A stretch of DNA of 64,000 nt from Pseudomonas sp. J452 (GTDB taxonomy: Bacteria > Pseudomonadota > Gammaproteobacteria > Pseudomonadales > Pseudomonadaceae). Shown one piece after another: positions 11,853 through 16,132 of the stretch. Both the position numbers and the translations under genes were made by a program. Location: contig NZ_CP088294.1 in the NCBI RefSeq assembly GCF_024666525.1, positions 2,852,001-2,916,000 of the forward strand. Reading direction: 5' to 3'. Numbering within the stretch: position 1 is the first letter of the stretch; every line of letters begins with the position of its first letter. The notes under the pieces were generated by a model. It was not told the DNA's origin, made no database searches, and saw only the letters and a program-made list of their open reading frames with translations.

Positions 11853-13866
11853 GTGATCAAGCCTACTGTATTGCGTGAACGCTTGTTGGGGCTGCGTCGC
11901 CGTCATAAACGTTTGTTGCAGGTTGCTGCCGATGTGGTGCTCGTCTGGTTGGCACTCTGGTTGGCATTTGTTGTTCGGCTTGGCTTCGATAACTCCATCA
12001 ATGTTTTCAGCAAATATGGTTGGCTGTTTATTGTTGCGCCCTTGATCGCTATCCCCTTGTTTATCCGCTTGGGTATGTACCGTGCGGTACTGCGCTATTT
12101 GGGTAATGATGCGCTGTTGACCATTGCCAAGGCGGTTTCGGTTTCTGCGTTGCTTCTGGCCTTGGTTGTTTACTGGTACCGGGATGCGCCTGCCGTTGTT
12201 CCGCGTTCTCTGGTATTCAATTACTGGTGGCTGAGCCTGACCCTGATTGGCGGGTTACGTTTGGTCATGCGCCATTACTTTATGGGTGACTGGTACGGTA
12301 TCGGTCGCAGTGCCACGCCTTCACAGAGTGACGGCAGAGCCCCGAAAGTAGCCATTTATGGCGCTGGCACTGCAGGAAATCAGCTGGTTGCTGCGCTGCG
12401 CATGGGGCGATCGATGAACCCCGTAGCTTTCATCGACGATGACAAGGGTATCGTCAGCCAAGTCATCGCCGGGCTCAAAGTATATAAGCCTGCCAGCATT
12501 ACCCAACTGATTGAAGATACCGGCGTGCAGGAGATTTTGTTGGCCATGCCGTCGGTGTCGCGCATGCGTCGCCGGGAAATTCTCGAGTACCTGGAGCAGT
12601 TCCCTCTGCATGTGCGCAGTGTGCCTGACTTCACGGATCTGGCCAGCGGCCGAGTGCAGGTTGATGCGCTCCAGGAAGTCGATATTGCCGATGTGCTGGG
12701 GCGTGATGCCGTGCCCCCCCATGACGGGCCTGTTCGAGCGCTGCATCCGTGGGCAGGTTGTTCTGGTGACGGGCGCCGGCGGTTCTATTGGGGCCGAGCT
12801 ATGCCGGCAGATCATCAGCGTGGAGCCAGCGGCCCTGATCCTGTTCGATCACGCCGAGTACAATCTGTATGCCATTCACGGCGAGCTGGAAGCGCGCATT
12901 GCGAGAGAGGCGCTGTCGATTCAACTGATCCCGATTCTGGGCTCAATCGGCAGTGCTTCCCGCTTGCTGGATGTCATGCGCTGCTGGAAGGTCAATACGC
13001 TCTACCATGCCGCGGCCTATAAGCATGTTCCGATTGTTGAGCACAACATCGCCGAGGGTGTGTTCAACAATGTGCTGGGCACCGTCAATGCTGCGCAAGC
13101 CGCGGTCAGGGCTGGAGTGGAACACTTCGTGCTGATCTCCACCGATAAGGCGGTTCGTCCGACCAATGTCATGGGCAGCACCAAACGCCTGGCCGAAATG
13201 GTGCTGCAGGCGCTCAGCCGCGAGACCGCTCCGGTGCTCCTGGACGACAAGGATGGCGTGCGGCAGATCAACAAGACGCGCTTTACCATGGTCCGTTTCG
13301 GTAACGTGCTGGGCTCTTCGGGCTCGGTTATTCCGCGCTTTCGCGAGCAGATTCGTTGCGGTGGCCCGGTGACGGTGACGCATCCGAATATCACCCGTTA
13401 CTTTATGACCATCCCCGAAGCTGCCCAGCTGGTTATCCAGGCCGGCGCCATGGGGCAGGGCGGTGATGTGTTCGTGCTGAACATGGGGCAGCCGGTGAGG
13501 ATCGTCGATCTGGCCGTCAAGATGATTCATCTGTCCGGCCTGACCGTACGCAATGAAAAAAATACCCACGGCGATATTGTCATCGAGTACAGCGGCCTGC
13601 GCCCGGGCGAAAAGCTCTATGAAGAGTTGTTGATCGGTGACAATGTGCGGCCCACAGAGCACCCGATGATTCTCTCTGCCAGCGAAGAGCATCTGGACTG
13701 GGACAGCCTCAAGCAGCGCCTGAGCGAGTTGCTGGCCGCTGTAGATGCGGGGGATTACGCCAAGGTGCGCCAACTGCTGCGGCAAACGGTCAATGGCTAT
13801 ACGCCGAGTGATGACATCGTCGATCTGATGTATCTGCAGCAGCAGGGGCCTGGCCACGCTAATTGA
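11853..13866 (+). CDS. wbpM: WbpM-like UDP-sugar 4,6-dehydratase, interrupted by a one-base frameshift
   Basis: A membrane-anchored nucleotide-sugar dehydratase of O-antigen or capsule synthesis, C6-dehydratase/C5-epimerase type, about 670 residues if intact (P. aeruginosa WbpM is close to this). The GTG start follows AGGATGG. The N-terminal half has several membrane helices (about residues 15-130) and a first Rossmann fold (AIYGAGTAGNQL). The catalytic half has VLVTGAGGSIGAELCRQI, the SYK-type dehydratase region HAAAYKHVPIVEHN and the ISTDKAVRPTNVMG block. The frame breaks after GRDAVPP at a run of seven C; six C would join it to MTGLFERCIRGQVV. As written the catalytic half is not translated in frame. 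The first 450 bases look poorer in GC than their neighbours. Confidence 0.85.
12714..12720 (+). other. C7 homopolymer at the wbpM frameshift
   Basis: Seven consecutive C between GATGCCGTG and ATGACGGG. Removing one C fuses the two wbpM halves into one frame with the expected conserved sequence on both sides. Possible explanations are an assembly error, slippage-based phase variation or a fixed mutation. Confidence 0.8.
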
Positions 13867-13883
13867 CGCCAATCGACACGCAT

Positions 13884-13919
13884 AACGAAAAGGGTCTGCA
13901 ATTGCAGGCCCTTTTCGTT
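13884..13919. terminator. Bidirectional terminator between wbpM and the tubulin-like gene
   Basis: A 17-bp near-perfect inverted repeat starting AACGAAAAGGGTCTGCA and ending CCCTTTTCGTT, with one G-T mismatch. A-rich and T-rich flanks on both arms let it serve the two convergent genes. Confidence 0.85.
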
Positions 13920-13939: not shown

Positions 13940-16132
13940 TCAGTCCTCGCCGCTGTAGTCATTGAGCGAGATGACTCGCGTCTTGCCGACACGGTGGCGG
14001 TAGATCTCGCGCAGGTACTTGATGGCTTTCTTCACGCTCTCGCGCGACAGGCGGATGTCGTTGATCGAGACGAACTTGTCCTTGTCGTTGATCAGCTCGC
14101 GGTACTTCTTCTCGTACATCGGCTTGATCGCGTACCAGTTGGTATCGAGGATCTTCGCTGGGTTCTCGTACTCGTTAAGCATGGCCTCGATGCGCTCTTC
14201 GTCGAACTCCTCGGAGACGATAAAGTCGAGCATGGAGTTGTCCAGGCTGTCGTCGTAGCGGTACTGGTCGCGGGCGAAGCAGCGTTTGATGAAGGCTACG
14301 ATCAGAGTCAGGAAGTCGTCTGACAGGCACGGGCTCTTGACGATCAGGGTGGTCAGCGACAGGTTGGCCGAGGCGCCGATCACCAGGGCGTAGCGCTTCA
14401 AGGTGGTGTTGGGGAACAGGCTGTTGAGGTGGCTCTTCAGGCGGTTGAGGTCCATGTAGGACAGCTTGTAGTCCTTCGGCAGGGAGACGATGGATACCAC
14501 CGAGGAGCAGTTCTTGAAGAAGTGCAGGTCGCTCAGGGCGCTGGCGTCGAAATTGGACTTCTTGTATTGCTCCAGCGCCGCACGGTAGCGCTTGGATTCG
14601 ATCGGCAGCAGGCTGATGCCTTCGATGGCCTGGGTCGCCTTGTTGAAGTGCGGCAGGTCGATGGAGCGGAAGAACAGGTCGTCGATATTGAGCTTGGGCT
14701 GTTCCTTCTCGAATACCTTGAATTTGTCGGTGGTGGTCGGCGCTGCCTGTTCGGCCACTACCGATTCGGCATAGGCCACGGCCACCGGGCCGGCCAAGCT
14801 CATGAACAGGTCGTTGGCATCCAGACGGATGGTTTCGCCGATGTCGATGCCGGCACGGCGGAAGTAGTTCTGGTCGTAGTCGGTGGTCACCGCCTGGGCG
14901 GTGAGGATGTTGAAGATCTGCTGCGAGATGTACTGGTTGGCGTGGCGCTCCATGGCGTTCACGTCGATGTTCTGGATATTGCCGCCGTCGCTTTCCTCGG
15001 CGTAACGCATGATGTCGTTGGAGATCAGCATCATCGCGTTCCACGGGCGGATGCGGCGCATCACGCTTTCTTCGCCGGTTTCCTCGTTGTCGAAGTTGTA
15101 GGAGAAGTCCCACTCCTCGGCGAGGTACTTGCACAGCAGGCGGCCGGCGTTGATGTGCAGGGCTTCGGACATCTCGATGCGCTGGTCGGAGATGTTCGGC
15201 AGGATGCAGATACCGCTGGTGAAGATCGGTTCGAAAACGAAGGAGTGGTCGCGGTTTTCGTCGCTACCTTCTTCGGCCTTGGTCTCGAAGGTCTTGCTCA
15301 TGTAGGCAAATTGCTGGGCCAAACCGAACTCCGAGGCCATGCCCGAGCCGGTGCCGCCGCCAGCACTGAAGATGTAGAAGTACAGGCGCGACTGGTTGGC
15401 TTTGATCCCGCAGGAGTCGATCAGGTAGCTGTGGATGAATTTCCAGTCGGCATTGCTGAAGCGCTGGGTGTCCTTGTTGAGGATGATCTTGGCCAGGTAC
15501 TGGCCGAGGATCGGTGCGTTACCGGCGCCACCGGCATGCACCTCGGACAGGTCCATGATCTTCATCTTGCTGTAGTCGCTGAGGAAGCCGCTTTTCTCGG
15601 TCTTGCGCGAGAAGCGGATGCGCCCTTCGATGTCCTTGTCCAGATCGCCGAGCATCACCAGTGGCTCGATGAGGAACACCGGCTTGGCTGCACGACTGGG
15701 CGCCAGGCGCAGGTTGCTGCGGATCCAGCTGGTCGGGCGCTGTTCGTTGGCCGGTTTTTCCTGGCTGCTGAATTCGTTGAGGTAGAACTTGCGCGCGTTG
15801 TACACCAGGGAGGCGACGTCCAACGCAATGTTGGAGCCGCAGCGGCCAAGACCAATCAGGCATACGGAAGGGAAATGCTGGCTGGAGCGCACGTCACTGC
15901 CATCGTCGCCCAGTACCTTGGGGAATACCCGCTCACGCAGGCCGTCGAGATTTTCCAGAATGCGGTCGATGTCGCGCTCGGTGAAGTACATGTACTGCTC
16001 ACCATTGCCGGCCGGGCTGATTCGCACGCGGGGCGCTAATAGGCTTTCAGTAACTTCAGCAATCTCGGCGACCACTGGGCGCGCTTCGGAAACGGTGGAA
16101 TCTGCGTCTTTTGTTGTTTTCATCATCGACAT
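13940..16132 (-). CDS. Large tubulin/FtsZ-superfamily GTPase-like protein
   Basis: A 730-residue protein with no signal peptide or membrane helix. After a variable N-terminus of about 85 residues comes a tubulin-type nucleotide-binding fold. The T1 loop is GLGRCGSN (94-101). The tubulin signature loop T4 is AGGGTGSG (257-264). A T6-like guanine-contact loop is MLISNDIM (368-375). A T7-like stretch is NIDVNAME (388-395); the Asp expected three positions after the first one is Ala, with Glu two positions later. A further 300 residues follow. It is much longer than FtsZ, TubZ or PhuZ. It lies 139 bases after a sensor diguanylate cyclase on the same strand and converges on wbpM. Not cell-division ftsZ, which sits in the dcw cluster. 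Function unknown. Confidence 0.8.
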   Translation of the reverse strand: MSMMKTTKDADSTVSEARPVVAEIAEVTESLLAPRVRISPAGNGEQYMYFTERDIDRILENLDGLRERVFPKVLGDDGSDVRSSQHFPSVCLIGLGRCGSNIALDVASLVYNARKFYLNEFSSQEKPANEQRPTSWIRSNLRLAPSRAAKPVFLIEPLVMLGDLDKDIEGRIRFSRKTEKSGFLSDYSKMKIMDLSEVHAGGAGNAPILGQYLAKIILNKDTQRFSNADWKFIHSYLIDSCGIKANQSRLYFYIFSAGGGTGSGMASEFGLAQQFAYMSKTFETKAEEGSDENRDHSFVFEPIFTSGICILPNISDQRIEMSEALHINAGRLLCKYLAEEWDFSYNFDNEETGEESVMRRIRPWNAMMLISNDIMRYAEESDGGNIQNIDVNAMERHANQYISQQIFNILTAQAVTTDYDQNYFRRAGIDIGETIRLDANDLFMSLAGPVAVAYAESVVAEQAAPTTTDKFKVFEKEQPKLNIDDLFFRSIDLPHFNKATQAIEGISLLPIESKRYRAALEQYKKSNFDASALSDLHFFKNCSSVVSIVSLPKDYKLSYMDLNRLKSHLNSLFPNTTLKRYALVIGASANLSLTTLIVKSPCLSDDFLTLIVAFIKRCFARDQYRYDDSLDNSMLDFIVSEEFDEERIEAMLNEYENPAKILDTNWYAIKPMYEKKYRELINDKDKFVSINDIRLSRESVKKAIKYLREIYRHRVGKTRVISLNDYSGED

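Follow-up and report, generated by a model that had tools for sequence, protein, structure and literature searches.

An FtsZl2-family tubulin/FtsZ-like protein encoded on the Pseudomonas chromosome: motifs, conservation, distribution and gene neighbourhood

We analysed a 64,000-nucleotide stretch of Pseudomonas sp. J452 (NCBI RefSeq assembly GCF_024666525.1, contig NZ_CP088294.1, positions 2,852,001 to 2,916,000; hereafter the window), which carries on its reverse strand a gene for a 730-residue tubulin/FtsZ-like protein. The gene almost certainly belongs to FtsZl2, a family known since 2010. The overall explanation that we favour, and hold to be reasonably probable, is that FtsZl2 is a cytoplasmic GTPase of the tubulin/FtsZ superfamily working beside FtsZ, which would form a GTP-fuelled filament separate from cell division. 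New with respect to 2010 are the distribution of the family, its FtsZ-like conservation, a conflict between gene trees and an enrichment of signalling genes next door. That a protein under constraint similar to that on FtsZ should occur in around two thirds of the sampled Pseudomonas species marks a clear gap in knowledge, and tractable carriers include P. protegens (L057) and P. putida (L042); FtsZl2 is of interest as a direct test case rather than as a new kind of system.

FtsZl2 was defined through a motif search by Makarova and Koonin (2010, PMC2875224). The authors give PFL_1302 of Pseudomonas fluorescens Pf-5 as the type member, with an HHpred E value of 0.0033 to PF00091, and describe a proteobacterial family with motifs T1, T4, T6 and T7, helix H7 and a C-terminal region of about 300 amino acids (aa) without relatives; they report coexistence with FtsZ, no coiled coil and no associated genes, and predict filaments. 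The window protein is from the same genus, has the T1, T4 and T6 motifs with a probable T7 and a C-terminal region of about 300 residues, coexists likewise with FtsZ, and belongs to a group found in Proteobacteria only within the genomes sampled; we saw no structural difference from the published family. Over residues 45-729 it is 84% identical to its relative in P. protegens FD6 (L057), the species that we take Pf-5 to be. Whereas no associated genes were noted in 2010, with more genomes GGDEF genes prove over-represented next door. A preliminary description of the window had placed the protein in a larger FtsZ-like family of unclear function, and that family is the FtsZl2 of PMC2875224. The open-access literature searched (preprints absent, most subscription journals missing) held no experiment on FtsZl2 and discussed it by name only in PMC2875224; the string FtsZl2 stands in just one other paper there, where the passages seen use it for a point mutant of FtsZ.

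Similarity to tubulins is faint in the members scanned. At E ≤ 0.01 the window protein matches two Pfam families and no others, PF13809 Tubulin_2 (E 0.005) and PF00091 Tubulin (E 0.0083), and neither match reaches its curated cut-off. When 12 members were scanned singly, 11 matched one or both families at the same E value and again all stayed under the cut-offs, the top scores being 24.8 bits against 33 for PF00091 and 18.8 against 27 for PF13809. P0122 gave the best match (PF00091, E 3.1e-5), P0125 matched nothing, and P0244 bears a precomputed PF13809 label, yet fell under the cut-off in its own scan. Within the window genome PF00091 rises above its cut-off at one place only, C1:339500, which is the genome's FtsZ, with FtsZl2 below. 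A tubulin fold for FtsZl2 is thus suggested by these sub-threshold matches together with the sequence motifs and the published HHpred result.

The T1, T4 and T6 motifs stand where they had first been noticed, with GLGRCGSN at residue 94, AGGGTGSG at 257 and SND at 371 of the 730-aa open reading frame (ORF), and their conservation is given in Table 1. The pattern GGGTG[ST]G occurs in this one alone of the 197 window ORFs of at least 100 aa. The T7 motif required reassignment. NIDVNAME had been read as T7 with a shifted second acidic position, which might alter GTP hydrolysis, but it sits just 15-22 residues past T6. The T6-to-T7 distance in FtsZ is about 44 residues, so NIDVNAME is too near, and we set it aside in favour of a later motif, RLDAND, which on the grounds of invariance, order and spacing is probably the true T7. 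RLDAND is unchanged in all 22 genomes compared, from 11 families, and the longer RLDANDLFMS is present in 119/119 rows of alignment A2. The two aspartates of its D-x-x-D are spaced as in NVDFAD of the window genome's FtsZ, and it fits the FtsZ pattern NxDxxD; furthermore, by eye, a long helix-like stretch precedes it and a small-residue, strand-like stretch follows, as in FtsZ. Joint MAFFT alignment of 22 FtsZl2 and 22 FtsZ sequences under five settings agreed on T1 and T4 only. One setting aligned T1, T4 and T6, placing NIDVNAME on FtsZ H7 and RLDAND 8 columns off FtsZ T7, whereas the other four did not align T6 of the two proteins. If RLDAND is T7, both acidic residues (D438 and D441) are kept, and hence lost hydrolysis is not indicated.

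Table 1. Features of the FtsZl2 gene and its upstream neighbour, in window coordinates
Feature	Position	Strand	Remarks
FtsZl2-family tubulin/FtsZ-like protein	13940..16132	(-)	730 aa from first ATG
T1-like loop GLGRCGSN	15830..15853	(-)	Residues 94-101; G-x-GRCGSN in 22/22 genomes and 119/119 alignment rows
Tubulin signature (T4) AGGGTGSG	15341..15364	(-)	Residues 257-264; 22/22 genomes, 119/119 rows
T6-like SND	15014..15022	(-)	Residues 371-373; 22/22 genomes; SND-x-M in 118/119 rows
NIDVNAME	14948..14971	(-)	Residues 388-395; more probably an insert plus the beginning of helix H7
Probable true T7 REASSIGNMENT, RLDAND	14810..14827	(-)	Residues 436-441; placed by order and spacing
C-terminal region	13943..14809	(-)	Residues 442-730; variable linker at about 461-480
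NMT1-GGDEF protein (GGEEF signature), 555 aa	16272..17939	(-)	139 bp upstream of the FtsZl2 gene, same strand

In FtsZ and tubulin, the importance of the T7 residues lies in one subunit completing the site of its neighbour, and the invariance of the putative T7 argues for head-to-tail assembly of FtsZl2 also. The protein would bind GTP through T1, T4 and T6, and the T7 aspartates of one subunit would complete the GTPase site of the following one as they do in FtsZ and tubulin. By this analogy we consider GTP binding and head-to-tail assembly fairly likely, and the reassigned T7 offers a testable start, namely the part of the two named aspartates in hydrolysis.

Structure prediction and fold comparison, which the preliminary description had proposed, were run and demonstrated neither a tubulin fold nor another. 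AlphaFold2 reached a mean predicted local distance difference test score (pLDDT) of 35.2 with 10 rows and of 48.7 with 119 rows (residues 44-730, the GTPase part being worst), both unusable. Foldseek and VIA-align searches with the low-confidence 119-row model returned nothing trustworthy, and that no tubulins turned up carries no information. The alignment rows share 58-98% identity with the window protein, probably too uniform for a coevolution signal. Comparison by hhalign of 22 and of 119 FtsZl2 rows with 22 FtsZ rows failed, as both profiles were too narrow. These two failures, together with the Pfam scores below cut-off, would fit a nucleotide-binding protein that retains a GTP site and either does not polymerise or adopts another fold; as all 119 rows have D-x-x-D where T7 is expected, we think this improbable.

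The ORF has the properties of a genuine and constrained gene. Its GC content by codon position (0.53/0.37/0.86) is typical for coding DNA in a GC-rich genome, close relatives exist in many genomes, and the ratio of nonsynonymous to synonymous substitution (dN/dS) lies between 0.049 and 0.239 in all nine comparisons with relatives, showing that it is under purifying selection. The true start is possibly M3 or M4 instead of the first ATG, a few codons later, because a 97% identical relative (P0001) has 724 residues. The protein has an isoelectric point of 5.4 and a peak 19-residue hydropathy of 1.56, indicating no clear membrane helix.

FtsZl2 is about as conserved between species as FtsZ. Across the 231 pairs of 22 genomes, mean identity was 66.9% for FtsZl2 (53.2-91.6) and 63.8% for FtsZ (47.7-94.2), and FtsZl2 identity equalled or exceeded that of FtsZ in 151 pairs and was lower in 80. 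In these genomes 269 of the 730 positions are invariant, and the first 40 residues and residues 461-480 vary freely.

Searches for the gene covered Pseudomonas, its order, class and phylum, and the family and order of one further genome, G385. A match was found in 162 of the 249 Pseudomonas genomes sampled and none in 87; two of the 162, both fragmented assemblies, gave two matches each, and FtsZl2 is normally a single-copy chromosomal gene. Matches were present in 13/244 genomes of the window's order, 2/369 of the class (window genome included) and 9/398 of the phylum, in 11 of the 12 genomes of the family of G385 (one decayed), and in 27/247 of the latter's order, counting those 11 together with a G1316 fragment. 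The names attached to the listed proteins include Arsukibacterium, Rheinheimera, Cellvibrio, Alishewanella, Psychromonas and Colwellia, and outside Pseudomonas the distribution within Gammaproteobacteria is patchy. Decayed copies occur in two genomes, G385 and G1316. In G385 (L122, 8410-11108) the decayed gene contains an SGNH-hydrolase-like ORF and a 77-aa ORF; by eye the latter looks like the tail of an EAL domain, which the domain scan did not confirm.

FtsZ itself was over the cut-off in all 23 FtsZl2-positive genomes tested. Because FtsZ is present in each of these and FtsZl2 is missing from many species, the FtsZl2 filament would do something other than division. The same coexistence, the shared superfamily and the FtsZ-like overall identity between species could also be seen in a protein that modulates division or cell shape by co-assembling with FtsZ or antagonising it. 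We judge such a role unlikely, given that 87 of 249 Pseudomonas genomes have no match and two other genomes have decayed copies, that the FtsZl2 and FtsZ genes of the window genome lie 2.5 Mb apart (C1:2,865,943 and C1:339,500), and that by eye no division gene was noticed among the recurrent neighbours. The two proteins share T1, GGGTG, N(D/E) and D-x-x-D in the same order; they differ in that FtsZ ORFs here measure 380-435 aa and are near-universal, whereas FtsZl2 has inserts and a longer C-terminal part and is absent from many species. Besides FtsZ and FtsZl2, one genome, G1084 (L228), has a second PF00091 protein, divergent and with a 403-aa frame, whose 54 bits exceed the cut-off.

We compared midpoint-rooted trees of FtsZl2 and FtsZ from the same 22 genomes, both of which contain open forks, with G999 on a long branch. 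In the FtsZl2 tree family f6, of the window's order, nests within family f35 of another order (support 98/100, 100/98), whereas in the FtsZ tree f6 groups with its own order (100/100). The FtsZl2 tree also joins f31 to f22 (100/100, weaker inside) and G670 (f120) to Pseudomonas (97/96, weaker inside). The conflict suggests that a lone FtsZl2 gene moved between orders by horizontal transfer.

This raises the question of a mobile or defence gene, serving plasmid or phage segregation or acting as a one-gene anti-phage system. The patchy occurrence of a single gene and its well-supported conflict with the FtsZ tree (f6 inside f35) would suit this, as would PADLOC matches in two of 10 neighbouring proteins scanned (L155, mad3, 2.2e-24; L163, DpdF, 1.6e-19). 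These two, however, read by eye as general ABC-ATPase and topoisomerase similarity, and no PADLOC family matches the FtsZl2 protein itself. No relatives were found among 72,556 plasmids and 50,697 phages, nor in viral contigs, for which the search was limited to peptide patterns, nor in an E. coli collection searched by nucleotide only. By eye the surroundings of FtsZl2 are housekeeping genes, sucCD-pfkA and rho-ppx for example, and FtsZl2 appears to evolve slowly for a defence gene. With both the collections and PADLOC negative, a plasmid, phage or defence origin is highly improbable. The initial description of a chromosomal gene is supported by its place on the single 4.86-Mb contig, its distance from the FtsZ gene and the negative plasmid, phage and viral searches. 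TubZ and PhuZ are tubulin-superfamily GTPases of plasmids and phages (PMC3678025 for the phage protein); FtsZl2, as a putative GTPase of that superfamily, resembles them, but was found on neither plasmids nor phages.

The sister family FtsZl1 is the same group as Pfam PF13809 Tubulin_2, and a 2023 superfamily study left Tubulin_2 proteins out as too divergent, according to that study (PMC9871819). FtsZl2 proteins match PF13809 weakly over T1-T4 (P0244, E 0.0011; P0247, E 0.0022), and both families have insertions between T1 and T4 (PMC2875224). According to the same paper, FtsZl1 differs in having a coiled coil, operons with vWA, GTPase and kinase genes and no recognisable T6-H7; FtsZl2, in contrast, retains T6 together with a motif resembling T7 and is not tied to one operon.

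The long C-terminal region noted at the outset is real, with 289 residues following D441, although the initial count of about 300 extra residues began at the wrong T7. Profile searches confirmed that residues 442-730 match no Pfam, NCBIfam, PHROG or PADLOC family, either over cut-off or at E 0.01, and a PDB sequence search gave no credible match. Some of these residues may form the second domain that is usual in tubulins.

The sensor diguanylate cyclase reported beside the gene was identified with Pfam as an NMT1-GGDEF protein; we regard its gene as an associated neighbour of FtsZl2, not an established partner. To place it in context we used 116 loci with flanks, ORFs from a crude caller, and gene families treated as independent though they come from related genomes. 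The surroundings differ by lineage (gene names by eye): many Pseudomonas have RapA, MFS, 3-hydroxyisobutyrate dehydrogenase-like and BraC genes near FtsZl2, the f6 genomes have ppx-rho there and f35 has sucCD-pfkA. GGDEF genes are over-represented beside FtsZl2, although they are not obligate partners. They account for 4/72 distinct families directly adjacent against 4/473 at least three genes away (Fisher p 0.013), or 4/457 when families that are also adjacent are removed (p 0.014). Chemoreceptors alone gave 2/72 against 1/457 (p 0.05), and all signalling classes together 6/72 against 5/457 (p 0.0014), the class having been widened after looking.

The four adjacent GGDEF families carry unrelated sensors, namely NMT1 (window), MHYT-GGDEF-EAL (L025), ammonium transporter-PAS-GGDEF-EAL (L120) and TPR-GGDEF (L190). 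All four share the strand of FtsZl2, and the NMT1, MHYT and ammonium transporter-PAS genes lie upstream or downstream of it depending on the lineage. A GGDEF gene is directly adjacent in 36/116 loci and a chemoreceptor or a piece of one in 3 more: chemoreceptor genes flank FtsZl2 on both sides in L194 and stand upstream in L200, with a 143-aa piece in L199. Two loci, L191 and L192, have a PilZ gene at -2 (the PilZ assignment is confirmed for L191), one ORF separates the MHYT gene from FtsZl2 in 22/118 loci (a count with smaller ORFs included), and G670 has a PAS-GAF-GGDEF-EAL gene at +2. The ammonium transporter-PAS-GGDEF-EAL gene, its domains confirmed for L120, lies beside FtsZl2 in L120 (5568-8630), L156, L157, L159 and L160, upstream in L160 and downstream in the other four.

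These neighbours point, with modest confidence, to membrane signalling as the first place to look. FtsZl2 filaments might organise membrane sensory proteins such as diguanylate cyclases and chemoreceptors, spatially confining cyclic di-GMP (c-di-GMP) or chemotaxis signalling; this is a tentative idea, for which the enrichment (p 0.013 for GGDEF, p 0.0014 with chemoreceptors), the exchange of unrelated sensors on one strand and the chemoreceptor and PilZ loci speak. In addition, the published review exchange of PMC2875224 mentions a c-di-GMP phosphodiesterase beside FtsZl1 in Pirellula. Weighing the other way, 77/116 loci have no directly adjacent GGDEF, EAL or chemoreceptor gene, GGDEF domains are common (66 matches in the window genome), chemoreceptors joined the test only after looking, and families from related genomes are not independent. 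Moreover, MHYT-GGDEF-EAL and FtsZl2 co-occur loosely: at an E=0 cut 122 of the 249 Pseudomonas genomes have both, 40 FtsZl2 alone, 39 MHYT alone and 48 neither (Fisher p 3e-6, confounded by descent), and the 40 and 39 genomes with one alone rule out obligate pairing. The c-di-GMP link first proposed gains weak support from adjacency, while its commonest GGDEF gene and FtsZl2 each occur without the other.

Transfer and loss apparently affect this gene by itself, and it is not part of a fixed operon; the predicted FtsZl2 filament should therefore work without a fixed partner gene, using parts that its hosts share. Its task could conceivably be the positioning or scaffolding of envelope-associated sensory and c-di-GMP proteins, a suggestion that we make with little confidence, and the neighbour enrichment gives a second testable start, namely which structure FtsZl2 marks in the cell. 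The widest version would make FtsZl2 a second tubulin cytoskeleton of Gammaproteobacteria, chromosomally encoded and sufficient by itself, moving between orders as a single gene, spatially organising membrane c-di-GMP and chemoreceptor proteins and recruiting each lineage's sensor cyclase; this we consider doubtful.

The proposed link to surface polysaccharide found no support. The wbpM-like gene is a direct neighbour in 4/118 loci, of which the window is one, and lies no more than four ORFs away in 7/118, and we rejected a polysaccharide role for this reason. In the window this nucleotide-sugar epimerase gene (11853-13866, forward strand) is in two overlapping pieces of 389 and 451 aa in different frames, while in a near relative (L001) it is one 670-aa ORF; a frameshift or an error in sequencing would account for the split. 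What looks like a two-way terminator separates the two convergent genes: an inverted repeat at 13886-13917 with runs of A and T on its flanks, seen by eye and not listed by the pattern scan.
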